Shown: piece after piece, positions 14,496 to 38,698 of the stretch
Layout of the letters: every line of letters begins with the position of its first letter
Numbering within the stretch: position 1 is the stretch's first letter
Translations under genes and position numbers: made by a program
Notes under the pieces: generated by a model
Databases searched by the model: none
Told to the model about the DNA's origin: nothing
The model's input: the letters and a program-made list of their open reading frames with translations, nothing else
Origin: Elainella sp. Prado103
Lineage (GTDB): Bacteria; Cyanobacteriota; Cyanobacteriia; Elainellales; Elainellaceae
Assembly (NCBI GenBank): GCA_025454395.1
Contig: JALOOM010000042.1
Location: forward strand, 1-40,227
Direction: 5' to 3'
Length of the DNA stretch: 40,227 bases

Positions 14496-14497
14496 AT

Positions 14498-16801: not shown

Positions 16802-16802
16802 A

Positions 16803-18347
16803 TTATTCCAACCCCGTCCAAGACTTTAAGATCGGCAACACATAGGAAATGGGCGATCGTTCTTCTACCGTGATCCGTACTGCTGTCGTCATCCCAGCAG
16901 TCATGGTTTGATTCGGCCCTTTAGAAGAAGACCAGCGAAACCCACTGATGGTGTCAGCACTCGGTTCTAGTTCGGCAAACACCGCAACATGGGCTCCTTC
17001 CGACAACACTCCCGGTAGAATATCTGGATTACCAACCAAACTGGCTGCCCCTTGTTGGGTCACAGGGAAGGCGGAAACCTGCTTAACCCGCCCCACAATA
17101 CCACCATACTCTTCCCGTTTAACGATCGTTGGTGTCAGTTGTACTGCCATATCTTCTTTCACTTTCTTACCATCACTGACAGGCAGGAAAATCACTCCTT
17201 CTAAGCGATCGGAGGTTTCAACGGCGATCTTACCGAGTTCCATCCCAGGCTCTAGTCGTTCACCAGGTTTAGCAGCTAACTCAACAACCGTGCCATCTTG
17301 TGTACTCACCACTTGGCTACTCTGTTTTAGCTCCAGCTCCAACTTGGCAATTAGTCGTTCCGTATCCTGAATTTCCTTGTTACGATTCGCCGCAGCCGCC
17401 AAATCTTGTTCAGTTTGGGTTGCCACTCGGCTTTCCAATGCTTGCAGTTGAGCCTGCAATTCATTAATCCGATTTTGATTGGTCAGAAATTCTCGCTGAG
17501 CTTCTGCTTCACGGGTATCCAATTGTTTGAGTTGAGTTTCAATTTGATTCACCTTAACCTGCATATCCAGATATTCCCGCTCTGCTTGCAATACCAGGTC
17601 TTCGGGCAACGCGCCCGCATCAAGCGCTGCCTGCCGCCCCTGCCACCGCTGTTCATACACGGGCAATTGACTGCGTAAGGTTTGCAACTGCTGTTCTAGC
17701 GTCAGTCGTTCCTGCTGAATTGATTCCAACCCCTTTTCACGTAACACCGGAGTCAGAGATTGTACAGTAGCTAAACTCTGTTGAAGCGCCTGCCGCTGTT
17801 GAGCAATTGCTGCTTGATCAAGCGATCCTCGCTGGCTTTGAGCTTCCTGAGCCATCTGATCTTGCATCCGCAACTGAATCAATTTTTCGCGGGCCAACCG
17901 CAGTTCTTGCTCCAATTCAGATTGATCGATCGTGGCCAGCACTTGCCCTTTTTTAACCCGATCGCCCGTATTCACCGCCAAAGCCTCCAACCGGCCGGCA
18001 CTGGCAGCTTGCAGATTGATCACCTGACTGGGATACACAATCACCCCCTGCCCCTTAACCGTGATCGGAATGCGCCCAAACACACTCCAGGTTAAACCGG
18101 CCGTTACTAACGTGCCCAAAGCGATCAAGGATAGCCAGCGTTTCGGACTGACAATTTGCACCAGTTGATCGAGTTGATCAGGAGAAATCGGTTGATCAGG
18201 ATGAGACGGCCGAGCCTGTCCCGTGGGAGCCGCCGGGTTGTGCGGAAGATGGAGCCGCCGATTCCCAGCAGAGGAGGATGGGGTTTGAGGCGATGATCCA
18301 GTAGGTGGATCGATCGATCGATCTTGTGATAATTTTTCAGCTACCAT
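16803..18347 (-). CDS. HlyD-type membrane fusion protein of peptide export system
   Basis: A 514-aa periplasmic adaptor linking the ABC exporter to the outer membrane. A Pro/Ser-rich cytoplasmic N-terminus is followed by one membrane helix (RWLSLIALGTLVTAGLTWSVF), a lipoyl-type half (GDRVKKGQVLATID), a long coiled coil rich in Q, E and L (about 160-345), and the second lipoyl half (QDGTVVELAAKPGERLEPG). It fits the NHLM secretion protein family (TIGR03794 type). ATG at 18347 is preferred: it overlaps the upstream stop by seven bases (ATGGTAG), giving translational coupling. A longer frame to 18398 would run 58 bp into the preceding gene. Confidence 0.9.
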   Translation of the reverse strand: MVAEKLSQDRSIDPPTGSSPQTPSSSAGNRRLHLPHNPAAPTGQARPSHPDQPISPDQLDQLVQIVSPKRWLSLIALGTLVTAGLTWSVFGRIPITVKGQGVIVYPSQVINLQAASAGRLEALAVNTGDRVKKGQVLATIDQSELEQELRLAREKLIQLRMQDQMAQEAQSQRGSLDQAAIAQQRQALQQSLATVQSLTPVLREKGLESIQQERLTLEQQLQTLRSQLPVYEQRWQGRQAALDAGALPEDLVLQAEREYLDMQVKVNQIETQLKQLDTREAEAQREFLTNQNRINELQAQLQALESRVATQTEQDLAAAANRNKEIQDTERLIAKLELELKQSSQVVSTQDGTVVELAAKPGERLEPGMELGKIAVETSDRLEGVIFLPVSDGKKVKEDMAVQLTPTIVKREEYGGIVGRVKQVSAFPVTQQGAASLVGNPDILPGVLSEGAHVAVFAELEPSADTISGFRWSSSKGPNQTMTAGMTTAVRITVEERSPISYVLPILKSWTGLE

Positions 18348-19468
18348 TGCATTTCTCTCCCCGCTCCTTGTTGTGTTTGCAACCGATTCAACAACCATTC
18401 AAATCGGGCTTCAGCTAAGGCCACCTGAGTTAAAAACTGCCCCCCTAAGTCCGTGGCATGAACCCTTTCACCATCCAACATTTGGCGATATTGCTGAATC
18501 AGCGACTGTCGTTTATGGGCTAACAAGATCGTCAACACCCGATAAAAGCGTGAGGCAAACCCAACATCATGCAGTAACTTCGCAGCCAGCCGCCAGCGGG
18601 GGATTGAGAGTACCTGGGAATCTCGCAAAGCTCGCACAGTCACCATCGGTAAATCCGCATCAAGCAATCCCATTTCACCGAGCATCTCCCCGCGCGACAA
18701 TCGAGCAATTTCTGCTTCAGCAGTCTCAGGGTGTCCAGATAAAGCCTGGCTAGATAAAAACTGGCCAGATAACCCTTGCCAGGGTAAAAATGCCCCAGTC
18801 CGAGATATGGATCGATCTTCAGTCTCCGGTTCTGTTGTCATCGGTAAACTCAACGCTACCGATCCATCCAACAGAACATGAAACGCATCAATTGGATAGC
18901 CACTCCGCATCAACACCTGATGGGCGGCTAGGGGTTGCACTTGTCCCACCGCAATCAACCAGTCCAGATCGCTATCTTGCAATTCGGCAAAAACAGTCAA
19001 CCCTTCTCGCAGTTGGGGCTGATTTAATAAAGCTGGATCGATTCCCATGTGATCGCTCAAGGTCTGAAGTTGATGGGCTAACAGCCTAGCGCTGGCTCGA
19101 TACAGATGCGCCGCAAATCCTAGATCCTCAGTCATTTTTTCTGCCAGGATGGATCGATCGATCGCGAGCAATGTGCAGTCAGTCATCGTTCGTGCTGCCA
19201 TCACTGCCGTCTGGCTCATCACACCTGGAATAATTCCCGATAAATCTCCGGGAGATAGACGATTTAATTCTCGTCCTGTTGACGAATAACTATCATCAAC
19301 TTGTCCTAGCAACTCTGACACCTGCCCTTCTAGCAGGAGATAAAAGTCATCCAACGATTGATAAGCTTGCCATAGAACTGTGTGGGCTGACACCGATCGA
19401 TGAGATCCGACCGCAAATAGCCAGTCCAGATCTGAAGTGTTCAACTCCTTCAGTAAGATTTGTCTCAT
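18341..19468 (-). CDS. Protein with two cyclic-nucleotide-binding-like domains, export cluster
   Basis: A 375-aa soluble protein with two CRP-type effector domains. The first (about 20-140) contains LLLEGQVSELLG and RLSPGDLSGIIPG; the second (about 175-320) contains HVLLDGSVALSL, LSRGEMLGEMGLLD and a following VRALRDSQVLSI strand. No DNA-binding helix-turn-helix or kinase follows, so it is not a CRP regulator. Such proteins accompany NHLP-type exporters in cyanobacteria and may tune the pump or bind the precursor; this is inference. The phosphate-binding RxA residues of true cNMP sites are not clear, so ligand binding is doubtful. It lies between the precursors and the HlyD gene in the same operon. 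Confidence 0.8.
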   Translation of the reverse strand: MRQILLKELNTSDLDWLFAVGSHRSVSAHTVLWQAYQSLDDFYLLLEGQVSELLGQVDDSYSSTGRELNRLSPGDLSGIIPGVMSQTAVMAARTMTDCTLLAIDRSILAEKMTEDLGFAAHLYRASARLLAHQLQTLSDHMGIDPALLNQPQLREGLTVFAELQDSDLDWLIAVGQVQPLAAHQVLMRSGYPIDAFHVLLDGSVALSLPMTTEPETEDRSISRTGAFLPWQGLSGQFLSSQALSGHPETAEAEIARLSRGEMLGEMGLLDADLPMVTVRALRDSQVLSIPRWRLAAKLLHDVGFASRFYRVLTILLAHKRQSLIQQYRQMLDGERVHATDLGGQFLTQVALAEARFEWLLNRLQTQQGAGREMQW

Positions 19469-19581
19469 AGGTCAATCCAGTGAAAGGGAACATGTGATAC
19501 AGAACAGAAAGTAGAAAGCAAAAGTGAGGAATGATAAGAATCTCAGAGCAAAAATCTGAGGAATGATAATGATAGTCAGCT

Positions 19582-19953
19582 TCAACGGCCAAATAATTTC
19601 ATCAAACCTGAAATAAAGCTGAGGGCTTCTCCTACAGATTCAAACCCTGAGCCAAAGAATTGCCAGGATGAGAAAGAAGTTCGGGAGGAACTGGAAACCG
19701 ATCGCATTGAGCCACAGTCGGAGTCGATCGCCTGACCAGAAAATTCATCCACTTGTTCAAATAAAGTTGAGGAAAACATTAGATCAATGCCACCGGAGAT
19801 TTGATCAAGTTCTTGCTCAGTCAGTTCAATTGGTGATGAATCGGCATTGAATTGATCATCACTGAATCGATCGGTACTATATTGATAGTCACTGAATCGA
19901 TCATCACTAAATCGATCACTACTCGGCTCATTGGGTTGGGTTTGCTTAGACAT
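19582..19953 (-). CDS. Double-glycine precursor peptide 1 of the export cluster
   Basis: A 123-aa peptide. The leader contains a repeated DRFSD element (DRFSDDRFSD ... DRFSDDQF) and then IELTEQELDQISGG, the classical GG cleavage signal recognised by C39 peptidases. The 68-residue core starts IDLMFSSTLFEQVDEF, is Ser-rich, has one Cys (DSDCGS) and ends in an amphipathic helix (VGEALSFISGLMKLFGR). ATG at 19953 is chosen because AGGAG lies six bases before it; an in-frame ATG at 19968 has none. No known modifying enzyme is nearby, so the core may be exported unmodified. I do not recognise the core family. Confidence 0.8.
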   Translation of the reverse strand: MSKQTQPNEPSSDRFSDDRFSDYQYSTDRFSDDQFNADSSPIELTEQELDQISGGIDLMFSSTLFEQVDEFSGQAIDSDCGSMRSVSSSSRTSFSSWQFFGSGFESVGEALSFISGLMKLFGR

Positions 19954-20034
19954 GGCCGACTCCTGCAAAGAATGAGGGGAGCGGAGGGTAATCCTGATCT
20001 AGCATTACTCCTCCGCTGGATCGCAATGAACTAC

Positions 20035-23435: not shown

Positions 23436-24479
23436 TTATCGTTTCTCTGCTTCTAACACCGCTTGAATTGCAGACTGATCTAAGCACTCTCCGATGAAGA
23501 TGAGCCGGGTTTGGCGCAGTTCGTCCGGTTGCCAAGGGCGATCGTAGAAGTAATCAAATCGGTTGCCGACCCCTTGCAGTACCAAGCGCATCGCTTTGTT
23601 TGGCACAGACACGAACCCTTTGATCCGATAAATTTCATGTTGCTGGACGAGGGTCGTCAATTGGTTTACCAAGCAGTCAGGCTCAAAGGACTGATCGGCG
23701 ATGAATTGCACTGAGTTGATCTGGTCATCATGGTCGTGCTCTTCTTCGTGATCATGATGGCTAGGACGATGATCGAGGTTGTCTTCAACGGCAGCATTAA
23801 AGCCGAGTAGCACCTCTGGGCTAATCTGTCCTTGGTGACAGGACACAATCTTCACACCGGCTGGTACTTCCTGCTGAAGCCACTGCTGCACCTTAAACTG
23901 AGCAGTTTCATCAACGCAATCACTCTTAGTTAACAACACCAGATCGGCACAGGCTAACTGATCTTCAAATAATTCTTCGATCGGGGTTTCATGTTCCAAA
24001 CTGTCATCCGCTTGCCGTTGGGCTTCCAAGGCAGCCAAATCGCCAACCAGTTTCCCATTTGCTAAGGCTTCGCAATCTACAACGGTCACCACACCATCCA
24101 CCGTCGCTCCAGTACGAATCTCTGGCCAACGAAAGGCTTGCACCAAAGGCTTGGGAAGGGCTAAGCCAGAAGTTTCGATCAAAATGCTGTCAATTCGATC
24201 GCGACGTTTGAGTAGTTCTTGCATGGTAGGCAAAAATTCTTCCTGCACTGTGCAGCAGAGGCAGCCATTCGTCAGTTCTAGAATATTGCCATCGGGGCTT
24301 TCATCTTCATCACAGACTTGGCAAGATTTAAGTAGTTCGCCGTCAATGCCAATTTCGCCAAACTCATTGACCAAAACAGCAATGCGTCGCCCTTGATTAT
24401 TTTGTAAAAGATGACGGACAAGCGTGGTTTTTCCAGCCCCCAAAAAGCCGGTAATCACTGTCACTGGAATTTTATGCAT
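23436..24479 (-). CDS. cobW: CobW-type G3E GTPase metallochaperone
   Basis: A 347-aa COG0523 GTPase. Walker A GFLGAGKTT is at 11-19, the metal-binding CxCC motif NGCLCC at 71-75, a switch ETSG follows, and the guanine-specificity motif appears as LTKSD. A His-rich loop (SHHDHEEEHDHDD) near 245-258 may hold metal, and the C-terminal CobW_C domain runs to VLEAEKR. The insert CDEDESPDGNILELTNG resembles the CobW of cobalamin synthesis rather than zinc-type YeiR/ZagA. CobW is thought to deliver Co2+ to corrin synthesis. ATG 24479 (MHKIPVTVITG) aligns with the family; the longer frame to 24575 would overlap the upstream gene. The cobalamin riboswitch ahead of the pair supports the cobalt role. Confidence 0.9.
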   Translation of the reverse strand: MHKIPVTVITGFLGAGKTTLVRHLLQNNQGRRIAVLVNEFGEIGIDGELLKSCQVCDEDESPDGNILELTNGCLCCTVQEEFLPTMQELLKRRDRIDSILIETSGLALPKPLVQAFRWPEIRTGATVDGVVTVVDCEALANGKLVGDLAALEAQRQADDSLEHETPIEELFEDQLACADLVLLTKSDCVDETAQFKVQQWLQQEVPAGVKIVSCHQGQISPEVLLGFNAAVEDNLDHRPSHHDHEEEHDHDDQINSVQFIADQSFEPDCLVNQLTTLVQQHEIYRIKGFVSVPNKAMRLVLQGVGNRFDYFYDRPWQPDELRQTRLIFIGECLDQSAIQAVLEAEKR

Positions 24480-24546
24480 GGTGAAGCCTTTCATGAAAGA
24501 ACAAAGCACAATGAACCGATCGAGATAGAGGTATGGCCATCCCGAG

Positions 24547-24954
24547 TTAAACAGACGGCATGGCGATCGGCGCAACCGGCTGCGGTGGAATCCGGGCTAA
24601 CACAGTCGTTTTGAGTGGGTCAGGACGACTGCCATAGGGCAACAGCCCAATCGGATGATGATGATATTGGCTGGCGCAGTCTAAAATAGCAGAGAGTGGA
24701 TCATACAGGCTCAAATTGCCAAATAGGTAGGTGTATTTGCCCGGTGCCGAAAATGAGATCGCGCAAGACTTTTCGCAGACGAACATACATTCCACTGGCT
24801 GAATGGTAAATCGATCGCGCAGTGGCCAATCTTGAGCCAATTGGTTTAGGGCTTCTAGCAGCTTCTGTCCACCACTTTTGCAGGGTTGAGTTGAACCAGA
24901 AGCCGCACGAACTTTGGCACAGGTCGTGCAAACAAACAGCGTATGGGATGTCAT
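24547..24954 (-). CDS. DUF1636 metal-binding (ferredoxin-like) protein
   Basis: A 135-aa protein with cysteines arranged as CTTC (residues 9-12), C25 and ECMFVCEKSC, as in DUF1636 proteins, which resemble thioredoxin-fold [2Fe-2S] ferredoxins and travel with CobW in cobalamin loci. The tail PIGLLPYGSRPDPLKTTVLARIP is typical of this family. ATG at 24954 (MTSHTLFVC) is preferred; the frame to 25005 would add 17 residues without similarity in the riboswitch leader. It precedes cobW by 67 bp and shares its riboswitch. The biochemical role is unproven. Confidence 0.85.
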   Translation of the reverse strand: MTSHTLFVCTTCAKVRAASGSTQPCKSGGQKLLEALNQLAQDWPLRDRFTIQPVECMFVCEKSCAISFSAPGKYTYLFGNLSLYDPLSAILDCASQYHHHPIGLLPYGSRPDPLKTTVLARIPPQPVAPIAMPSV

Positions 24955-25024
24955 GATGGAGTAGTGTATCTGTACCACGCAGATAGACGAAACAACCGTT
25001 GGCAATGAGGTGTCTCAAACCATG

Positions 25025-25215
25025 AGAACCTCGATCGGCGGGCATCCTGACTTATCAGATGGGAAAGCGTCGCTTGTGTATCAACGATTGCCTATCAGCA
25101 ATGTATTAACCCTGGCTATGCTCAACCTGAATAACAGTTGCGGGACAGCGGCAGATTTACACTGCACTTTCCCCCTTACGTTTGGTGACTGCTCCTCACC
25201 AAAACCGATTAGGTA
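25025..25215 (-). ncRNA. Cobalamin (B12) riboswitch
   Basis: Read on the minus strand, this leader contains the conserved core GCCGCTGTCCCGCAACTGT (about 25135-25155) and then the B12 box GTCAGGATGCCCGCC (25037-25051). Further 5' is a GGGGGAAAGTGCAGTG segment and a GTGA...TCAC hairpin. These are the landmarks of the cobalamin riboswitch family. It lies 70 bp upstream of the DUF1636-cobW pair, which would be switched off when adenosylcobalamin or pseudocobalamin is plentiful. No U-run terminator follows, so control may be translational. End points are approximate. Confidence 0.9.
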
Positions 25216-25329
25216 ACGATAGCATGTTTCCCGAACATCCTAGATATCAATTACTCTCTAGATGAGCCATAACCTTCCTATGATATAAATGCGATTTGGC
25301 ATTATTTTAGCGTTGTACAGCGAGCCTCC

Positions 25330-28250: not shown

Positions 28251-29297
28251 TTATCCCTGCCGATCGACGGCTGAAAACGGTTGGTAGGCTTGCTCCGGAT
28301 GATAGAGATGGCAATGATCCACAATGTCTTTCATGAGTTTCCAGGAAAACTCTCGACATTGCATATATTCGCCCCAATTTTCCATCAAGCTCTGATGCGC
28401 CATTCTCAAGTTGTAAGAGGGCACTGAAACTGAGATGTGGTGCGGAACATGTACGTTGATGTCATGGCAGAGAATTTCTACCCAGCGGGGATAGCGGCAG
28501 TGAACGGTACCCGCGAGTTGCGACATTGCCGGATTCCAGGTTTCAGTCGGGTAAAACTGAATGTCAGGTGCCGTGTGATGCACAAGGGTAAAAGTACTCA
28601 TCCAGAAGTGATAGCCCAACCAAGGAATAAACCAAAACTTGATAAAGCCCCAAACCCCGGTGGTTAAGATCAATGTCGGGAATGTGATCACTGCAAAGAG
28701 AACAACAACTGCGATCGAGACTTTCACCTTGGCATGATCGCGCGCTGCAAATTGGTTGAGGTCAAAGTGGATTTTGAACCAGTGGGCAATGGAAGCCATC
28801 CACCAGAGCCGCCCCCGTAATAGTCGGTAAAAGGCTCTTAACCAGCCTGGGGCTCCTTCATACTGCTCAACCGTCCAGGGCTGCCAAGCATTGTCTACCA
28901 GCAGTTCGTTGGTGTGAACATGGTGATAATCGTGCAAAATCCGCCAGGGATGGAATGGATAAATGAGAGGCATCATCATAATGTGACCGACCCAGTCGTT
29001 TACCCAACGCCGTTTGGCAAATGAGCGATGCCCGCAGTCATGGCCGATTACAAAGAAGCCCGTCAGCGCAGTTCCCGTAAATGCCCAAGCAAAAGGCAAG
29101 AGGAACCAGGGAGAATTGGCAATGGCCACATATCCCAAGATGACAGATGACACGCTCAGCAAGACCGCTTGCCAGGCCTTACGGCGGTTTTTCTCAAAGC
29201 ACGCTTTGGGTAGGGTTTTAATGATATCTTTCAGATGAAAATCGGCCTTATCCGAAAGACGCGAGGTTGTTACGAAGTTATCAGTCGTTGCCGTCAT
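28251..29297 (-). CDS. desA: Acyl-lipid Delta12 fatty acid desaturase
   Basis: A 348-aa membrane di-iron desaturase that introduces the Delta12 double bond into oleoyl groups of membrane lipids, using ferredoxin. The three histidine boxes are HDCGH (86-90), HDYHH (122-126) and HVPHH (283-287). Hydrophobic segments around 45-85 and 190-240 are the membrane helices. [14 protein letters not shown] near the N-terminus and the [16 protein letters not shown] segment are typical of cyanobacterial DesA. It stands alone, convergent with the GH1 gene. Cold-inducible expression is known for desA in other cyanobacteria; nothing in this promoter shows it directly. Confidence 0.9.
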
Positions 29298-29760
29298 GTA
29301 TCAGATCGATTCTCCATGTTGAATGTGGATCGGCAATCGGCCAAACCCACGGTGAAACTGCGAGGCTCACCTGGACAGCAGACGGTGACATAGCAACCAT
29401 GTAACACCACCTATCCCAGCGAGTCCACTGTGGCTCTTCAAGCACGCCAGGATGAGCAAGATCCCCGCTAAAAGGCTTAAAAAACCTTTACATTTATACC
29501 ACGGGCAGGGCAACGCTGGATGGGATTTATCCAGATTGACTGACCCATCCGTCCAAATGACATAAAAAATGACATAAAAAATTCCCCGATCGCCGGTAAA
29601 CCTGATCTTCGATCGAAATCGATGGATCAATGCCACTGAAACGGGGAAATTGTGGAAAACTGTACCAGAACCTATTCACTGCCCACTTGATCGATCAGAT
29701 TCAAGGAGGAGTCCATCAGTTCACAAAGTCAGAAATTAGAAATTCGAGACAACTTGAGGT
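29298..29760. other. 463-bp intergenic stretch upstream of desA
   Basis: No supported gene. It includes a perfect 12-bp tandem pair (29557-29580) and presumably the desA promoter, which I cannot place. Confidence 0.55.
29557..29580 (+). repeat. 12-bp tandem pair upstream of desA
   Basis: ATGACATAAAAA is repeated twice without a gap, about 260 bp before the desA start on the opposite strand. This could be a regulator site or a chance slip. Confidence 0.6.
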
Positions 29761-30264
29761 TTAGCTGCTAGCTTTGCCGCGTCGTTTCCGAGTTGGGGCT
29801 GCTGCCACTGTTTTAGTTTTAGTCGCAGTCGATCGAGTTGTTGTTTTGGCAGTCGGTTCAGCAGCAGCTTTAGCCGCCGCTGGCTTACGTCCCCGTCTTG
29901 GGGCTTCTGTCGGTTCAGCGATCGGGGCTTCTTCCAGCTCATCATCGACTGATTTTGTCCGTCTGCGGCGAGTTTGCCCTCCCTTGGTGGTTTTCAGTTG
30001 GCGGTTGCTGCGCGCCAAGTAATGCTTTAAGGAAGAGGGAGCAATTGTCACCCCTTGCTTGGCTAACATCACCGCAATGTCATCGTAGGAGTAACCTTTA
30101 TCGAGCGCAGCCGTAATATGATCTCTAAGAACATCAACAGCTTCCCTCAAAGAAAGTTTCTCTTTCGTCTTTTCAGGCAGTTCCTGTAATGCTTCAGAAG
30201 CCTGATCGATTGCATCTTTCGTAACAAGCGTAGCGTTGGGAGAACGTCTGGTAGTTGAAATCAT
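29761..30264 (-). CDS. Small DNA-binding-like protein with AT-hook-type basic tail
   Basis: A 167-aa protein. Residues about 38-85 (LREAVDVLRDHITAALDKG, then YSYDDIAVMLAKQGVTIAP and SLKHYLAR) look like a helix-turn-helix in which a cell decides between units, a pattern common in accessory plasmid and mobilisation proteins. The last 70 residues are a lysine/arginine/alanine/threonine tail with RRGRKPAAAKAAAE, an AT-hook core (RGRKP), and a histone-H1-like end RKRRGKASS. Similar conserved proteins of unknown role occur in filamentous cyanobacteria. A chromatin- or promoter-binding role is inferred from composition. It is monocistronic. Confidence 0.7.
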   Translation of the reverse strand: MISTTRRSPNATLVTKDAIDQASEALQELPEKTKEKLSLREAVDVLRDHITAALDKGYSYDDIAVMLAKQGVTIAPSSLKHYLARSNRQLKTTKGGQTRRRRTKSVDDELEEAPIAEPTEAPRRGRKPAAAKAAAEPTAKTTTRSTATKTKTVAAAPTRKRRGKASS

Positions 30265-31037: not shown

Positions 31038-32552
31038 GTGAAACCTCGTATTCTAATTTGGTATCGCCACGATTTGCGGCTCCATGACCATGAGCCCCTC
31101 CATACCGCCCTCAAACAGAGTGCTATTATAGTGCCGCTCTACTGTTTTGATCCACGGCAGTTTGGAGAAACCCACTTTGGTTTTCCCAAAACTGGTGCAT
31201 TTCGCGCGCAGTTTTTAAGAGAATCCATTCAAGATTTACAACGATCTTTCCAGAAACTGGGTAGTGCTTTAATCATCCGGGTCGGTAAACCCGAATCAAT
31301 TATTCCCACTTTAATCGAACCACTGCATATCACTTCAGTGTATTACCATACAGAAATTACTACTGAAGAACAGGTCGTAGAATTGGCACTTCAGCGATCG
31401 CTTCAGATGCATCACATACCTTATAGAGCCTTCTGGGGAAACACCCTCTATCATCCTGACGATTTGCCCTTCGATCGATCCAACATCCCAGAATTATTCA
31501 CGACTTTTCGTAAGCAAGTTGAAAAACACGCAAACATCCAACCTGCGTTGCCATCTCCGCAGACGTTATGCCCTTGGCATCTCCCTTCAGAGGGCTCAAC
31601 CCCTACATCTCCCCCATCCACAGTGGAGATAGGTGATATTCCCAGATTGGGTGACACATTGGGTGACTTCAACCTTCAACCAATCGTTCCTGACCCGCGA
31701 GCAGTACTGGCTTTTCAAGGTGGAGAAACCGCAGGTCTCACCAGGCTTCAGCAATATTTCTGGCAGCGAGATCAGCTCCGTCATTATAAAGAGACCCGTA
31801 ATGGCTTATTAGGGGCAGATTATTCATCTAAGTTTTCGGCTTGGTTGGCTGCTGGGTGTCTATCCCCTCGATATATCTATCAACAGGTCAGGCAGTATGA
31901 GCGGGAACGAGTACAGAATGATTCAACCTACTGGTTAATCTTCGAATTGTTATGGCGCGATTACTTTCAATTGATTAGCGCCAAGCATGGTGACCGCATT
32001 TTTTATCGATCGGGGTTACAAAGGCTACCCATTGCCTGGAAGCAAGACTGGCAGAGGTTCGATCTATGGCGAGCAGGCAAGACAGGCTATCCCTTCGTCG
32101 ATGCCAATCTGAAAGAGTTAGCCGCCACAGGCTTTATGTCAAACCGGGGGCGACAGAATGTAGCCAGTTTTCTCACCAAAAATCTGGGAATTGACTGGCG
32201 GATGGGAGCTGAATGGTTTGAATCGACCCTGATTGATTACGATGTGTGCAGCAATTGGGGAAATTGGAATTATAGTGCCGGAATTGGCAATGACGCACGC
32301 GGGTTTCGTTTTTTTAACATTACCAAACAGGCCCAAACCTACGATCCAGAGGGGAGCTATGTCAAACACTGGTTACCGGAACTGGTTGCAATTCCGGCGG
32401 CACGGATTCATGAACCCTGGAAACTCAGTCGCGATGAGCAAAAACAGTATGGAGTCAGGCTGGGGGTTGATTATCCCCACCCAATTGTGGATTTATTACA
32501 GTCGGCTGCAACTGAGGAAAAACGCTACAAAGAAGCAATTGCCAGGCGTTGA
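31038..32552 (+). CDS. DASH-type cryptochrome (cry-DASH)
   Basis: A 504-aa flavoprotein of the photolyase family. The N-terminal antenna-binding Rossmann half starts ILIWYRHDLRLHDHEPL. The FAD-binding half includes GADYSSKFSAWLAAGCLSPRYIY, LLWRDYFQLI, TGFMSNRGRQNVASFL, WRMGAEWFE and DVCSNWGNWNYSAGIGNDAR, which are diagnostic for cry-DASH rather than CPD photolyase. Members repair single-stranded or looped cyclobutane dimers and act as blue-light receptors. Translation appears to start at GTG 31038; no upstream ATG fits. A 20-residue Pro/Ser/Thr-rich insert (LPSEGSTPTSPPSTVEIG) lies in the interdomain linker. The iteron-bearing region starts 6 bp after its stop. Confidence 0.92.
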   Translation: MKPRILIWYRHDLRLHDHEPLHTALKQSAIIVPLYCFDPRQFGETHFGFPKTGAFRAQFLRESIQDLQRSFQKLGSALIIRVGKPESIIPTLIEPLHITSVYYHTEITTEEQVVELALQRSLQMHHIPYRAFWGNTLYHPDDLPFDRSNIPELFTTFRKQVEKHANIQPALPSPQTLCPWHLPSEGSTPTSPPSTVEIGDIPRLGDTLGDFNLQPIVPDPRAVLAFQGGETAGLTRLQQYFWQRDQLRHYKETRNGLLGADYSSKFSAWLAAGCLSPRYIYQQVRQYERERVQNDSTYWLIFELLWRDYFQLISAKHGDRIFYRSGLQRLPIAWKQDWQRFDLWRAGKTGYPFVDANLKELAATGFMSNRGRQNVASFLTKNLGIDWRMGAEWFESTLIDYDVCSNWGNWNYSAGIGNDARGFRFFNITKQAQTYDPEGSYVKHWLPELVAIPAARIHEPWKLSRDEQKQYGVRLGVDYPHPIVDLLQSAATEEKRYKEAIARR

Positions 32553-32557
32553 GGGAT

Positions 32558-33267
32558 GATTACAAATCTGATTACAGGACTTGTAATCAATCGGTGCGAT
32601 CGGGGCGGCGAGAGATCGATCGACCCCATGATTACAGAAAATGATTACAGTGAAGTCGGGGACACCCTCAAGGTCATTTGGCTCAAATCTAGCCCTAATC
32701 AGGCTTTAAGTCGAGTTCAGTTCATTGCCCACCCTCGATTTTGGGGCGAGGATCTAGAGCATGATTTTGTAATCAGCCATTGGGCCAGAGGGTCTAGAGA
32801 ATCTTGTAATCAGCCTCGCTTTGACAGGAGTGGTCGCAATCACCCTGAACGGACAGCTATCCTCGATCGATCCGGATGATTACGTAACGATTACAAGTCA
32901 TAGTTCGGTAGTGCTACCTCTAATCACCCAGCACCGGCCTGTTGATAACGAAAACCTTCTAGACCCCTACCCCCAACCGACTGCCTATTATCCAAGGTTT
33001 CAGCCCCATGATTACAGGTTTTCCTAAACCCCCCTCCCCAACCCGATTCATTTGTTTCTAGAACCTCCCCCCCAAGCTCTCTAGATCCTCAACCCGACCC
33101 AGTCTAGACCCCCACAGTCAAACTTTCTAGAGCCTCCCTCCCAATCACTTCTAGACCCCTAGCATCGATCTCTCTAGACCCCCTACCCCTAAATTACGGT
33201 AATTGGCTCAAGTTATCCGGATTTACGCCCCAGGTGATTACAAAACACTGTAATCAAATCGATTACA
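32558..33267. repeat. Twelve GATTACA boxes in a candidate replication origin
   Basis: The exact heptamer GATTACA occurs at 32558, 32570, 32630, 32643, 32889, 33010, 33236 and 33261, and its complement TGTAATC at 32582, 32768, 32805 and 33249. Two triplets and one pair are spaced 12-13 bp. By chance fewer than one copy would be expected in 710 bp. Another TGTAATC lies at 37196, just after the small gene that follows the replication protein. They look like protein-binding boxes of an origin or of the replication gene's operator. Confidence 0.85.
33057..33195 (+). repeat. Six 23-bp iterons headed by TCTAGA
   Basis: TCTAGA starts at 33057, 33080, 33103, 33126, 33150 and 33173, giving intervals of 23, 23, 23, 24 and 23 bp. 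Most units continue TCTAGANCCYC and are C-rich. Two outlying copies are at 32793 and 32958. Regular direct repeats of this size before a replication gene are the hallmark of iteron-controlled plasmid origins. Confidence 0.85.
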
Positions 33268-33342
33268 AAAGCCGCTGTTGATGAGGGTAATTGCCCAGAA
33301 CCGCCCTGATATAACCAGAGAACGGTTTATTGGGGTCATTTC

Positions 33343-36300
33343 ATGTCGGCATCAAAGATCGCCACAGCCGCCAAATCTACAACTCATTTAGCAAGCTGGA
33401 AAGCCGATCAGTCTCAATCGGAGGCAGTCAATCCAGCCGTTTCTAGGCGGACATCGTCAGTTGAACCCGCAGCACTAGCTGAGCCGGTTCCAGATTGGCA
33501 ATCGCTGGAAAACCAGAGCGGTCATCCAGCCGGAAAGCTGCCGGTATCCGCGTGGATTACCCATGTTGCTCCCGATCATGCTGCCGAATGGCTAGCCAGT
33601 GGGGTAGATCCCGAAATCATTGCCCTGAATGTTGAAACACTGACCGATACCGCGATCGAGCCTACAACCGATCGCCTCTTTCCGATCGCAGAGCGACTTA
33701 ACTGGTCAATTAACCGCTTTGGTGTCAAAACTCGCCCCGCACTGCGAGGTTGGTGGGTGAGTGGTCGCGACCCCTTCACAGGACAGAGAATGGATTGGGG
33801 CCGGTTTAAACCGGATATCGCAACCCCGATTCTGGATTACAAACAGCAAAAGTTCGCGAAATACCTCAGTCCCCGTTTGGGGCCAGGGTCTAGTCGTTTA
33901 GTGCTCTTAGATGTGCCAGTTCAGATTTGGCAACGGGTGGCTCAGCGTTATCAGACATCAGTTCCAGAGGATCAAACCCTAGGCTTCTGGGAGTGGGTCA
34001 AACAAAATCAGATTCCGATCGTGCTAACAGAAGGTGAGAAAAAGGCAGGCTGTTTACTGACATTGGGGTATGCAGCAATCGCTTTACCGGGAGTTTTTAC
34101 CGGATATCGCAGGCAGACAGGACAGTTGATTCCTGATTTAGCGATTTTCGCTACACCCGATCGCCCAGTTTATATCTGTTTTGATTTTGAGACTCGTCCA
34201 AAAACCCGCCAGCAAATTCAGTTGGCTACTACTCGATTAGGACAGTTATTAGATCGATCCGGATGTAACGTCCAGGTGATTACATTACCTGGAAGCGAGA
34301 AGGGAGTCGATGACTTTGTCATGGCACAAGGGGCAGCAGCCTTCCATCAGCAATATCAACGATCTACCCGTTGGATAGATTGGCAGGTTCAACAGCAATG
34401 GGGGATTAGCTTTCCGATCGCCCGATCGCTCAATCAGCCCTATTTAGCAGATTTAACCTATCCAGAGACAGGCATTGTTGGGATCAAAAGCCCGAAGGGA
34501 ACTGGCAAAACAACTGCACTTCAGCCTCTAATCCAGCAGGCGATCCAAACCGAACGCCCCGTTTTGGTGATTACCCATCGCGTTCAACTCGGACGCGCAA
34601 TTTGTAGCCACTTAGGATTGACTTGGATTGAAGCACTCCAACATCCGCCTTCTCAACCGTTCAATTCCGATTCGTTAGGGGACACACAAGCCCTGTTAGG
34701 GTACGGATTATGTGTTGATTCACTCCACCCTCTCTCCCAGGCTCGGTTTAACCCCCAACTTTGGCAAGGAGCGATCGTCATTATTGATGAAGTTGAGCAA
34801 GTCCTCTGGCATGTTCTCAATTCATCCACTTGCTATGAACATCGCGTCAAAATTCTTGAAACCCTTCGAGAATTAATTCAAACAATTACTGCCAGCGGCG
34901 GCTTACTGATTCTTCAAGATGCCGATCTATCCGACCTCAGCCTCAATTACTTCCTCAGCCTGACAGAAGAACCAATCCTGCCGTGGATTGTGGTCAATCA
35001 ATGGCAGCCTCCGCAATATCCAGTCTGGTTTTACGACACACCGAACCCGACTCCCTTACTTGACCAGCTTCTGGAGATCGCCGAAACAGGAGCTGTTTTT
35101 ATCAGCATGGATTCACAGAAAGTACAGGGGCGCTGGAGTTCTAGAAACCTAGAGTCTTTTTTAAGCAAGCGACTTCCCCATAAACAAATTTTGCGGATTG
35201 ATTCTGAAACCGTCACCGATCCCAATCATGCAGCCTATCAAATTGCCGATCGGCTCAATCAAGCAATAGCCCAGTATGACATCGTACTGGCCACCCCTAC
35301 AATCGGTACAGGGGTAAGCATTGATTTGCCCAATCATTTTCAAGCCGTATTTGGCATCTTTCAAGGGGTAATTCCCGATCCAGAAGTAAGGCAAGCCTTA
35401 GCCCGTATTCGCAGTCCCATTCCCCGATTTGTTTGGGCAGCTCGGTTCGGTAATCGCAAAATTGGCAATGGCAGTTGTCATTATCAGGAGATTGTTACAT
35501 CCACTTTGCAATCAGTGAAATACAACATCAATTTGTTGAAGATGATCGATTTTGATCTCGATCAATCCACTGATCCAATTACCCTCAGAACCTGGGCCAA
35601 AATGGCAGCCAGGGTAAATTATTCACTCTGGAACTTCCGACAGCAGTTAGCTCAAACCCTGCAATTAGAAGGACATGAACTGGAAACACTCACAGCCGAT
35701 CGCCCTTCTTCCAAAGTAGAAAAGATATTGACGGAGTTAACAACCGTACAGCAAGAAAATCGGCTACAAGATGCCATAGCCATTGTTACAGCAACTGAAA
35801 TTCCGAGTGATGAATACGAGACATTGAAAGATCGACAGACTAAAACTTGGAAAGAACGCTGTGCGATCCAGAAATATGAACTTCAGAAGCGCTATAGTAT
35901 CCCCCTCACATCAGAGATTAAATTAAAGGATGACGATGGTTGGTTTTCCCAATTACGCCTCCACTATTATCTCACTCATCCTATCGATCTCGTTCATCGA
36001 CGCGACCGGAAAGAATGGCAAAACCACCTGGAACGCGGCGAGGGTAAGGTCATTCTACATGACATTCGATTTTTTACTGCCCAAGTAGAAGCTTTAAAGA
36101 GCTTAGGCATTTCAGCACTGCTAGATCCCAATCGAGAGATCCGTGCGACCGATCCAGATGTTGTCCAGATTGCCCAACATTGCATTCGTTACCAGCGCGA
36201 CATCAAAACTGTATTGAATCTAACCCTATCTGAGAAAATGACCCCGATCGCGATGATCCAGTCCCTGCTCAGCAAATTGGGGTTAAAACTAACCTGTATC

Positions 36301-36639
36301 CGACGTGATCAAGCTAGCAATGGTAAACGAGGAGGATTACGAGTCTACCAATACCAACCCCCTCAAGATCAACGAGCAGAAATCTTTGCCAGTTGGCAAG
36401 CGCGTGATCAAGAGGTTTTCGGGCTAGACACTAGCGACAGGACACCAAACAATGATCCACCCCCAGATATAGAGAGATCTATTCAATCAACCGATGGATT
36501 AAACGATGGATCAAACCGATCGTCCATCAAGGGTGTTTCCCAGCATCCTTCGCCGCCAATTCAACACCACTCATCCGTATGCTTCCACCAACGCGATCGA
36601 TGGGCGGATCAATTATCAGAACGATGGACAGATCAATGA
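33343..36639 (+). CDS. DUF3854 primase/helicase-type plasmid replication protein (CyRepA-like)
   Basis: A 1098-aa protein. Residues about 200-335 form a DUF3854 TOPRIM-like domain with VLTEGEKKAGCLLTLGY, ALPGV, YICFDFETR and KGVDDFVMAQG. A helicase domain follows, with Walker A SPKGTGKTTA (about 382-392), VLVITHRVQLGRA, Walker B VIIDEVEQ (about 478-485), a motif-V-like TPTIGTGVSID (about 650) and the arginine motif RQALARIRSP. The TOPRIM-plus-helicase layout is that of the DUF3854 replication proteins (CyRepA) of large cyanobacterial plasmids. The iterons and GATTACA boxes directly upstream fit an initiator acting on its own origin. The last 250 residues are unclassified, ending in a His/Ser/Pro-rich tail. 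ATG 33343 is the first in-frame start after the repeats. Whether it still fires replication here is unknown. Confidence 0.82.
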   Translation: MSASKIATAAKSTTHLASWKADQSQSEAVNPAVSRRTSSVEPAALAEPVPDWQSLENQSGHPAGKLPVSAWITHVAPDHAAEWLASGVDPEIIALNVETLTDTAIEPTTDRLFPIAERLNWSINRFGVKTRPALRGWWVSGRDPFTGQRMDWGRFKPDIATPILDYKQQKFAKYLSPRLGPGSSRLVLLDVPVQIWQRVAQRYQTSVPEDQTLGFWEWVKQNQIPIVLTEGEKKAGCLLTLGYAAIALPGVFTGYRRQTGQLIPDLAIFATPDRPVYICFDFETRPKTRQQIQLATTRLGQLLDRSGCNVQVITLPGSEKGVDDFVMAQGAAAFHQQYQRSTRWIDWQVQQQWGISFPIARSLNQPYLADLTYPETGIVGIKSPKGTGKTTALQPLIQQAIQTERPVLVITHRVQLGRAICSHLGLTWIEALQHPPSQPFNSDSLGDTQALLGYGLCVDSLHPLSQARFNPQLWQGAIVIIDEVEQVLWHVLNSSTCYEHRVKILETLRELIQTITASGGLLILQDADLSDLSLNYFLSLTEEPILPWIVVNQWQPPQYPVWFYDTPNPTPLLDQLLEIAETGAVFISMDSQKVQGRWSSRNLESFLSKRLPHKQILRIDSETVTDPNHAAYQIADRLNQAIAQYDIVLATPTIGTGVSIDLPNHFQAVFGIFQGVIPDPEVRQALARIRSPIPRFVWAARFGNRKIGNGSCHYQEIVTSTLQSVKYNINLLKMIDFDLDQSTDPITLRTWAKMAARVNYSLWNFRQQLAQTLQLEGHELETLTADRPSSKVEKILTELTTVQQENRLQDAIAIVTATEIPSDEYETLKDRQTKTWKERCAIQKYELQKRYSIPLTSEIKLKDDDGWFSQLRLHYYLTHPIDLVHRRDRKEWQNHLERGEGKVILHDIRFFTAQVEALKSLGISALLDPNREIRATDPDVVQIAQHCIRYQRDIKTVLNLTLSEKMTPIAMIQSLLSKLGLKLTCIRRDQASNGKRGGLRVYQYQPPQDQRAEIFASWQARDQEVFGLDTSDRTPNNDPPPDIERSIQSTDGLNDGSNRSSIKGVSQHPSPPIQHHSSVCFHQRDRWADQLSERWTDQ

Positions 36640-36795
36640 CCAAAACAGAACAGCCAAGAAAATGAGATGGAGAGATCTAACTGCAAATTAGGGGACACAA
36701 AAAGCAGCTTATCAACGGGGTAAATGTACCCTAACCCAGCAATAAGCCTGCTATCTTCACCACACTTTCCACTCTCTTTTCCATCACGTAAGTCT

Positions 36796-37155
36796 ATGCC
36801 AACCTACTTACAAACCCTAGCTGTTCAGGCTGTCCATTTATCACCAAAAGAACGACTAGAGTTAATCGCGATCTTGGAAGCTTTAAACCAGGCTGAGCAA
36901 GATTTAATTCCCCCTTCAGCTCAGTCAAATTCTTCCCAAGCAAATTCCTCGGCCACTCAGCTTCAGCGGAAAGTGGCAGCCCTTCAACGGGTAGGAATCA
37001 GAGGTGGGAAAGGTAGCTTCGAAGATAAATATATTCGGGGTTATGGCCCCTATCGATATCTGAGATATTGGTATGGCAAAACCCACAAAAGTATTTATTT
37101 AGGTAAGGTCAGTTCTCATTTGGAAAAACAGTTAAAACCTGAAATTGAGCCATAA
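36796..37155 (+). CDS. Small protein with GPYRYLRYW-YLGK motif, downstream of replication gene
   Basis: A 119-aa protein. The N-terminal half (MPTYLQTLAVQAVHLSPKER then LELIAILEALNQAEQDL) resembles small antitoxin-like helices. The C-terminal half GYGPYRYLRYW, then YGKTHKSIYLGK, resembles the short beta motif seen in DUF6788-type proteins on cyanobacterial plasmids and mobile elements, sometimes near integrases. ATG 36796 (MPTYLQ) is preferred over 36724, which lacks similarity. It follows the replication gene on the same strand with 156 bp between. A role in the replicon is likely from context only. Confidence 0.6.
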   Translation: MPTYLQTLAVQAVHLSPKERLELIAILEALNQAEQDLIPPSAQSNSSQANSSATQLQRKVAALQRVGIRGGKGSFEDKYIRGYGPYRYLRYWYGKTHKSIYLGKVSSHLEKQLKPEIEP

Positions 37156-37268
37156 AGCCAAGATTCAGCTCAGTAATAGAGACTCAATCAAAGGTTGTAA
37201 TCATTAAGTGACTTCCCGCAATGAAGAATTCGACAAGACATTAATACTTTCCCTCATACCAATTAAAA

Positions 37269-37462: not shown

Positions 37463-38698
37463 CTATGCTCGCAGGTGACCTAAAACCTCTCGCCAGGAAG
37501 CGACCAACGTGTCTTTGTCCAGGGATTGTCCCATTTGTTTGACGCGCCATTTACGAAAGGCAAGCTCGTTTTGGGCCCGAACGATCGCGGCTGAGGTGCG
37601 GCGATCTGTGCCATCAATGCGGCGAGTACGGAAAATGCGATCGCCCTTCACGGCTTCATACTCTTCCGGCGTAATCACCGATTCCTGTTCATCAGCAAGT
37701 TGTTCTCGAATCACAGTCCGCTCCCAGATGCCGCTCTGCCAGAGCATCACGCCCACAATCAGGAAAAACGGGAAATAACTCACCAGTTTTATGGCGCTGT
37801 GCTGTACCCACTGATTCAGGAAAGGTGCCACCAAAGCTGGGGTGGCGGTCGCGGGTGTATCAGCCACAGGTTGTCCCGTCTGAAAGTAGATGACCAGTGC
37901 GATCGTCAACCCAACCATATTGTTGAGGAAATGAGCCGCAAACCCCAGCAGCCAACCTCCGATCGGAGCCGCAACGCGCAACCAGCGGCGGGTCGTTTGA
38001 CAAGCTAACCCCAATCCCATGCCAAACATTCCTGTAAACAGGGGATGACCCGCGAAACCGAGAACCGCAAGGCGATCGGCGATTTGGTAATACAGCGGAA
38101 TGTCTCCAGTTTCGATCAATGCTTTGGTGATGTAAAACGGCGTTTCCTGGAAATTAAAGCCGATGCCAACCAATGCTCCATAAATGAAGCCGTCGCGCAC
38201 ATTATCAAACTCACTACGGAATAGCCAGAACAACAGCAAAACCCCCAGCCCTTTGGCGGTTTCCTCCACCAGTGGCCCGGCAATTGGGGCGGTCAGCAGC
38301 ATCACGGCATCTTCGCCCAAAACGTCTTTGATCTCGGGGTGAAGCACTACAAAATCACCTACACTCTTGAAAAAAATACCGTTAACAGGAAACGCAATTC
38401 CGGAGGCAATCAGCGCTCCCCACAGAAAGGCAATCACATAAAGCCAGCGGGATTCTGGTTCCCGTCGATCCAGAAACCATAGGATGGCAAGGGGGCACAG
38501 CGTCACCAGAAGTGTGCCAAGCAAGCCCATGATGTAAACCTGGATAGCCGCTGGGGAAAGGGTTGAAAAGTAGACACGGAATAACGAAAACGTACTGGCC
38601 AGTACCAGCACCACCAGAACGATGATGGCAAAGATCGCATTTTTGGGACGACTCAACGGTGAGCCATAGAGAACACGGGCGGAATCAGTTAGCGACAT
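37463..38698 (-). CDS. PrsW family intramembrane metalloprotease
   Basis: A 411-aa multi-pass membrane protein. The family motifs are VEETAKGL (EExxK), FNFQETPFY, GHPLFTGMFG and AAHFLNNMVGL, which together bind the catalytic metal inside the membrane. About nine hydrophobic helices can be counted from residue 20 to 320, with a charged cytoplasmic tail of some 80 residues (SVITPEEYEAVKGDR). In Bacillus PrsW cleaves an anti-sigma factor; the target here is unknown. It is transcribed after the CPBP protease gene with 82 bp between, suggesting a two-gene unit, and is closed downstream by the attC-like site A. Confidence 0.9.
   Translation of the reverse strand: MSLTDSARVLYGSPLSRPKNAIFAIIVLVVLVLASTFSLFRVYFSTLSPAAIQVYIMGLLGTLLVTLCPLAILWFLDRREPESRWLYVIAFLWGALIASGIAFPVNGIFFKSVGDFVVLHPEIKDVLGEDAVMLLTAPIAGPLVEETAKGLGVLLLFWLFRSEFDNVRDGFIYGALVGIGFNFQETPFYITKALIETGDIPLYYQIADRLAVLGFAGHPLFTGMFGMGLGLACQTTRRWLRVAAPIGGWLLGFAAHFLNNMVGLTIALVIYFQTGQPVADTPATATPALVAPFLNQWVQHSAIKLVSYFPFFLIVGVMLWQSGIWERTVIREQLADEQESVITPEEYEAVKGDRIFRTRRIDGTDRRTSAAIVRAQNELAFRKWRVKQMGQSLDKDTLVASWREVLGHLRA

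Follow-up and report, generated by a model that had tools for sequence, protein, structure and literature searches.

A conserved two-box repeat array before a CyRepA1 gene may mark a plasmid-type replication module resident on an Elainella chromosome

The window studied here is an entire contig of Elainella sp. Prado103 (C5, 40,227 bp; the genome comprises 5.84 Mb in 157 contigs), in which an array of TCTAGA and GATTACA boxes directly precedes a gene for a CyRepA1-family replication protein (Rep). Comparison of this locus with its counterparts in other cyanobacteria shows that the box type follows a helix-turn-helix (HTH) protein, HTH511, and not the Rep, a result that is correlational, the number of independent class changes being small. 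Judging from these comparisons, we think it rather probable that the window holds a plasmid-type replication module fixed in the chromosome, in which HTH511 would recognise the array and CyRepA1 would serve as helicase/primase. The parts of this module present in the window are:

32556..33267, no strand assigned: origin-like array of nine TCTAGA and 12 GATTACA/TGTAATC boxes (from box counts and a three-way DNA alignment)
32741..32815, no strand assigned: two composite units, with TGTAATC 15 and 12 bp after TCTAGA
33057..33178, no strand assigned: six-copy TCTAGA iteron array with C-rich spacers and a period of 23-24 bp (23, 23, 23, 24 and 23)
33236..33267, no strand assigned: Rep-proximal triple box GATTACA/TGTAATC/GATTACA, ending 75 bp before the Rep start
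33343..36639, plus strand: CyRepA1-family replication protein of 1098 amino acids (aa), with DUF3854 at residues 215-332 and a superfamily 2 (SF2) helicase part

An earlier note on this DNA had described six TCTAGA iterons at a 23-bp period and twelve GATTACA boxes, and both descriptions were borne out, the spacing being 23-24 bp. Within positions 32553-33342, TCTAGA occurs at 32753, 32793, 32958, 33057, 33080, 33103, 33126, 33150 and 33173, and GATTACA or its complement TGTAATC at 32558, 32570, 32582, 32630, 32643, 32768, 32805, 32889, 33010, 33236, 33249 and 33261. In 2,000 dinucleotide-preserving shuffles of these 790 bp, the mean counts were 0.26 for TCTAGA and 0.10 for GATTACA/TGTAATC, with maxima of 2 and 2. 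The rest of the window contains eight TCTAGA and seven GATTACA/TGTAATC, all dispersed, and five of the ten places in the genome with the pattern TCTAGA-N17/18-TCTAGA belong to this array. Direct repeats at a helical period, beyond chance, are thus found beside a rep gene, as expected of an iteron-type region. The boxes are also conserved: when the window was aligned with Elainella saxicola E1 (genome G001, locus L071) and the metagenome-assembled genome RM1_2_2 (G003, L079), 131 of 138 box positions were invariant, compared with 187 of 682 positions outside the boxes. Across the 12 loci tested, the composite units mostly had an offset of 11-13 bp, ranging from 11 to 16, and L171 had no such unit. 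The triple-box pattern occurred in four of 388 genomes of the class, and a reversed-pattern control gave no match; one of its occurrences, in G021, precedes a different gene, X (see below), the distance to the TCTAGA array being 61 bp there and 63 bp in the window.

The protein behind the array is a DUF3854-helicase of the CyRepA kind, as the earlier note had proposed, with matches to Pfam DUF3854 (E 2.5e-43, 147.5 bits, cut-off 23) and to NCBIfam CyRepA1 (NF042913; 443.9 bits versus a cut-off of 200). DUF3854 has been suggested to be TOPRIM-related (PMC10079941). In a nine-row alignment, the GTGKT motif at residues 386-390 is invariant except for T387, and D482, E483 and E485 are invariant. 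SF2 folds match residues 354-784 of the predicted structure, indicating a DEXD-type SF2 helicase part, in a model with a predicted local distance difference test score (pLDDT) of 61 and a predicted template modelling score of 0.38, of which residues 1-190 lie below pLDDT 50 and are unusable. The top PDB match of the model was the origin-binding helicase of herpes simplex virus 1 (Z 16.7, root-mean-square deviation 20.9 over 447 residues), followed by general SF2 helicases from Z 15.5 down, the first of them with a deviation of 4.6 over 300 residues. No DNA-binding domain was found in the Rep above the Pfam cut-off, although one in the first 190 residues could be missed.

A profile built from five Reps recovered 12 related loci, while a single-sequence contig scan had found none. 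The presence of repeats before close DUF3854 relatives had been preset as a test of the earlier claim, and the outcome supported it: the same boxes occur at three other loci, a different two-box set at three, and neither at six. The array (class I) is common to four loci among the window and these 12, namely the window, E. saxicola E1, RM1_2_2 and FACHB-502 (L074); the TCTAGA period is 22-24 bp also in L071 and L079, and L074 has a short array of three. Class II boxes, at L077, L080 and L081, have AAGTACTT with CGTATCA instead, and this class appears to be the same two-box logic written in different letters. At these class II loci (L080, about 7033-7745; L081 and L077, upstream of the Rep), AAGTACTT was observed as a palindrome together with CGTATCA/AGTGGAA repeat units. 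By 7-mer counts, L072, L073, L075, L076, L078 and L082 have neither class, and L072 has other short repeats. The box type does not track the Rep: the Reps of FACHB-502 (class I) and FACHB-63 (class II) are 77% identical and their box types differ, and those of the window and Synechococcus PCC 7502 are only 30% identical and share the same box family. In the Rep tree, the group of the window, Elainella and RM1_2_2 is well supported, with few other supported forks and long branches.

The boxes also occur without CyRepA1. Three TCTAGA at a spacing of 22-25 bp were matched in 23 of the 388 genomes scanned, four of which were known before (G000, G001, G003, G008), and 20 sites from the remaining 19 were read. 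The two-box array was found in 11 of the 388 (G000, G001, G003, G008, G021, G142, G147, G164, G189, G224 and G294). In the other 12 matching genomes the sites were rejected as unrelated repeats with no GATTACA cluster (13 sites fetched, not including G027:C87); two of these genomes, G131 and G200, carry HTH511 elsewhere, and G200 has a full array beside it. In G021, G142, G147, G164, G189, G224 and G294, none of which has CyRepA1 beside the array, the array is faced by X, a protein of 561-636 aa whose likeness to PrimPol comes only from hits under the curated cut-offs (L169, 0.0033 in Pfam; L165, 0.00087 in NCBIfam); the X profile gave nothing useful against PDB sequences. Complete plasmid records extend this picture. 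The order is HTH511, boxes (ACTAGA for TCTAGA) and CyRepA1 on pSYN7502.01 of Synechococcus PCC 7502; HTH511, boxes (TATTACA for GATTACA) and a gene annotated DUF3987 on pGLO7428.02 of Gloeocapsa 7428 (deposited as linear); and X, boxes and HTH511 on the circular plasmid3 of Leptolyngbya NIES-3755, whose HTH511 is identical to that on contig 4 of G224. X, CyRepA1 and HTH511 came out as unrelated by blastp and hhalign (probabilities of 0.38, 0.37 and 0.45 of 100, from shallow alignments of 5-7 rows). As far as such comparisons go, class I boxes are shown to be reused with three unrelated genes, CyRepA1, X and DUF3987.

Other observations concern X on plasmids. A third repeat set, AGACAA..CTCCGTAT..TCAC, lies at the X genes of NIES-3755 plasmid1 (L191, 2963-4009) and Kovacikia pA (L192, 3000-4000), and an HTH511-like gene lies upstream in L191 and L193. 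An X relative is present on Synechocystis 6803 pSYSG (NC_005231.1, 16352-17290; L294, 5001-5939; 38.5% identity over 51% of the query), and pSYSX was not among the X-matching plasmid records listed (60 of 66). The Rep of pSYSG has been called unknown (PMC10899382), and X would be a candidate Rep for plasmids with none assigned, such as this one.

HTH511 is a protein of about 450-550 aa (as open frames) with a C-terminal HTH_3/HTH_31 domain, encoded in this genome on contig C35 (1250-2782), apart from the array contig. Its subfamily scores 586-867 bits and paralogues at most 459 bits. At E<=1e-150 it was detected in 30 of the 388 genomes, including all 11 array genomes, six of which have it adjacent and five (this one included) on another contig. 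The hypergeometric probability of this co-occurrence is 8e-14 for all 11 and 6e-7 for the five non-adjacent cases, both values ignoring relatedness. Among the 30 HTH511 genomes, the array lies within about 1.5 kb of HTH511 in 17 and on another contig in six (G000, G001, G003, G008, G021 and G056), and two have adjacent class II boxes (G023 and G270). Two weak or contig-edge cases were left out of the array counts (G037, at a contig edge with one TCTAGA and three GATTACA; G131, with two and three on a 5.1-kb contig), and G373 (two TCTAGA, ten GATTACA), G208 (ACTAGA for TCTAGA, nine GATTACA) and G056 (one and six) were counted as arrays. The class I array thus adjoins HTH511 in 17 of the 23 array genomes seen, and the gene on its far side in those 17 is X in 14, CyRepA1 in one (G208) and lost at the contig end in two (G078 and G284).

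The HTH511 of this genome is 59-85% identical to the class I proteins compared (59-64% to the copies of FACHB-502, PCC 7502, pGLO7428.02 and NIES-3755) and 24-26% identical to two class II proteins. The C-terminal HTH differs by class, reading SQRKL...SQGLIS with small variants in class I and SQMD...SQSWVR in class II; G152 has an HTH like that of class II, and boxes of neither class were found there. The split between class I and class II is well supported in the HTH511 tree, which has few other supported forks and long branches. A structure prediction for class II HTH511 (two rows, pLDDT 36) was not used.

Because HTH511 is constant while the adjoining proteins differ, we infer that it is the likely reader of the array. 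The earlier note had offered the two repeat families as candidate sites for binding by the Rep, a claim that the comparisons do not support: since box type disagrees with Rep relatedness and the same boxes precede the unrelated X and DUF3987 proteins, the Rep is probably not the box reader. In the mechanism that we propose, HTH511, encoded on C35, would bind the TCTAGA and GATTACA boxes, and CyRepA1, transcribed away from the array, would open and/or prime the DNA in cooperation with HTH511. In other replicons, X or the DUF3987 protein would fill the role of CyRepA1 at the same boxes, and CyRepA1 is best read as an exchangeable helicase/primase. We also infer that the site may still be able to start replication. 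The widest version of this proposal, a domesticated DnaA-independent plasmid origin on cyanobacterial chromosomes with a split initiator, consisting of HTH511 as reader and an exchangeable CyRepA1, PrimPol-like X or DUF3987 protein, is put forward as a tentative possibility, more doubtful than the module itself.

The genomic position of the module bears on whether it belongs to the chromosome. The earlier note had placed it between cry-DASH and protease genes, on a contig with desA and cobW. A cry-DASH gene, a PrsW-type protease (37463-38698) and cobW (23436-24575) were all found on the contig; a desaturase is present at 28251-29297, and its name desA is that note's own and falls below NCBIfam cut-offs. 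The features that define the slot are:

28251..30264, minus strand: desA-like gene and p167 (conserved synteny)
31038..32552, plus strand: cry-DASH gene, left boundary of the slot (TIGR02765, 601 bits; same neighbour in G001 and G003)
36724..37155, plus strand: p143, small gene directly 3' of the Rep, kept in three species of the genus

The order desA, p167, cry-DASH, array, Rep and p143 is the same in the window, G001 and G003, whose Reps are 59-65% identical, and p143 (no family match in Pfam or NCBIfam) has an approximately 54% identical match right after the Rep in both relatives, the match in G001 crossing one stop codon. Further downstream are EamA, ParA and ParB in G001 and G003 (ParA in two frames in G003) and PrsW in the window. 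A fourth member of the genus, G002, has no close Rep; its contig 54 (L109) starts inside an X gene that adjoins cry-DASH, followed by p167, desA, ParB, ParA, a gene that by eye is nudC-like, and topA; by this gene order the slot is the same one, occupied by a different replication gene. G004, the fifth genome of the genus and 77% complete, gave no match for the Rep and matched photolyases only distantly. The DUF3854 match in the window is the sole one in the whole genome, in which a dnaA match is also present. The ends of C5 have no exact overlap of 15-399 bases, a result on the topology check proposed in the earlier note that speaks against a circular contig.

That note had left the choice between an integrated plasmid and a large plasmid or chromid carrying housekeeping genes. 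The chromosomal-type setting was upheld, and a simple recent integration was not. Relatives of the Rep are common on plasmids (449 matching records, of which 118 match over >=80% of the query), as integration in this strain only would suggest; none of these records reaches 60% identity to the Rep, and the slot is shared by three diverged species, for which reason we rejected a recent integration as highly improbable. A chromid or large plasmid in this genus would fit the ParA and ParB genes that follow CyRepA1 in G001 and G003, the ParB and ParA beside desA in G002, and the lack of any tRNA in the window or the scanned contig pieces of this genus. We nevertheless regard it as an alternative that is live but unlikely: contig 39 of G001 also carries birA and cbiE/T, and contig 54 of G002 topA; in G006, whose genome is a single contig of 5.8 Mb, cry-DASH is found 7 kb from desA; sequence flanking the FACHB-502 locus has matches at scattered places in single-contig G006 and G011 and on multi-megabase contigs of G026; and an X version stands on a 7.69-Mb contig in G349. 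Because the slot is common to three species and the FACHB-502 locus lies on a 325-kb contig with purF, purL, clpP, an rsmE-type gene and tRNA-Arg, the locus is probably an old chromosomal resident, a chromosome being better supported than a chromid.

Several observations weigh against the module as we read it. None of eight other CyRepA1 plasmid loci (L220-L227) has more than a single TCTAGA, or any GATTACA, upstream; L220 and L225 carry other short repeats, with an HTH511-like gene upstream. Seven further plasmid X loci (L191-L197) lack a class I array, and three of the 30 HTH511 genomes (G061, G088 and G152, partly on short contigs) show none. The co-occurrence is uncorrected for phylogeny, and five of the six array genomes with adjacent HTH511 supplied sequences to the HTH511 profile. 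HTH511 and the array occupy different contigs in this genome and in five further array genomes, and HTH511 could be a regulator instead of an initiator. It may also be dispensable for some CyRepA, given that the ssr7036-slr7037 region of pSYSA, or CyRepA2 of pCC5.2 with its upstream region, replicates in Synechococcus 7942 (PMC9978351, PMC10079941). These same plasmid pieces would favour a classical one-protein iteron Rep, in which CyRepA1 binds both repeat families and HTH511 is an accessory regulator only, as would the boxes directly preceding CyRepA1 and the viral origin-binding helicase as best structural match. With the same boxes standing before X and DUF3987, a box type independent of Rep relatedness and no recognisable DNA-binding domain outside the poorly modelled N-terminus, we consider that arrangement unlikely. 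A slightly better case can be made for the array as an operator of the rep gene, with a chromosomal copy that no longer fires and that selection has kept as a regulatory relic since an old integration: the proposed reader is on another contig, dnaA is present, C5 has no ParB match, and neither FACHB-502 nor the window nor 400 kb of G349 showed a clear GC-skew switch at the module, a further point against our reading. In G349 a small local skew minimum lies near the module and a larger one about 70 kb away; GC skew is irregular in most cyanobacteria (PMC7198777). We still find the relic improbable, considering that species with Reps 59-65% identical have preserved both the boxes and an intact Rep (1098 aa) and that such long phased arrays would exceed the needs of an operator. 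The replication module with HTH511 as reader remains the reading that we prefer.

In the iteron origins of theta plasmids, a rep gene is preceded by tandem repeats whose period is about two helical turns, and the initiators are of the Rep_3/RepE type. In contrast, the adjacent protein here is an SF2 helicase and two box families are interleaved. In IncQ plasmids such as RSF1010, iterons are read by RepC, with RepA as helicase and RepB as primase. The likeness to our locus lies in the proposed split of the reader from the helicase/primase, with no homology claimed, and the difference in a helicase/primase that would be exchangeable between three families. The pSYSA replicon of Synechocystis 6803 (Slr7037) likewise belongs to the CyRepA1 family, its upstream region and Rep forming the replicon, and is controlled through ssr7036 and an antisense RNA (PMC9978351), while the present locus combines two box families with HTH511 as proposed partner and probably lies on the chromosome. 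CyRepA homologues have been reported on the chromosomes of 80 of 145 cyanobacteria, with a call for functional validation (PMC10899382), so chromosomal homologues as such are not new; a conserved array and a candidate reader are added here. The words "iteron", "repeat" and "helix-turn-helix" do not occur in the text of PMC10899382, nor "iteron" in that of PMC10079941 and PMC9978351, and in the literature from 2022 on none of the matches listed paired "CyRepA1" with "helix-turn-helix". In Synechococcus elongatus lacking dnaA, replication came to start from an integrated plasmid's origin (PMC7198777, citing Ohbayashi 2016). That takeover concerns a laboratory mutant, whereas the Elainella locus is natural and long-kept in a genome with dnaA.

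The start of replication in DnaA-independent cyanobacteria has been described as open (PMC7198777), and, if the widest version of our proposal is true, sites of this type would be natural candidates for it. The analysis yields a concrete site, a candidate reader protein and the simple prediction that box type follows HTH511. For a family of plasmids that serves in cyanobacterial vectors, it would also set recognition apart from the helicase/primase function.

Elsewhere in the window, a PvuII-type restriction enzyme fused to an HTH (482-2424) lies beside an N6/N4 DNA methylase, a short open reading frame (ORF) at 2636-2779 has a perfect 72-bp tandem duplication, and a NACHT ATPase fused to a GUN4-like domain occupies 3685-6405. 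At 11496-19968, two ABC-type exporters stand with genes of HlyD-like and CRP-like type and with an ORF of 128 aa that has a double-glycine leader (LTEQELDQISGG), a grouping that by eye resembles a bacteriocin-type export cluster. A cobalamin riboswitch (Rfam RF00174, 55.7 bits) was observed at 25020-25224, upstream of a small ORF (24547-25005) and cobW.

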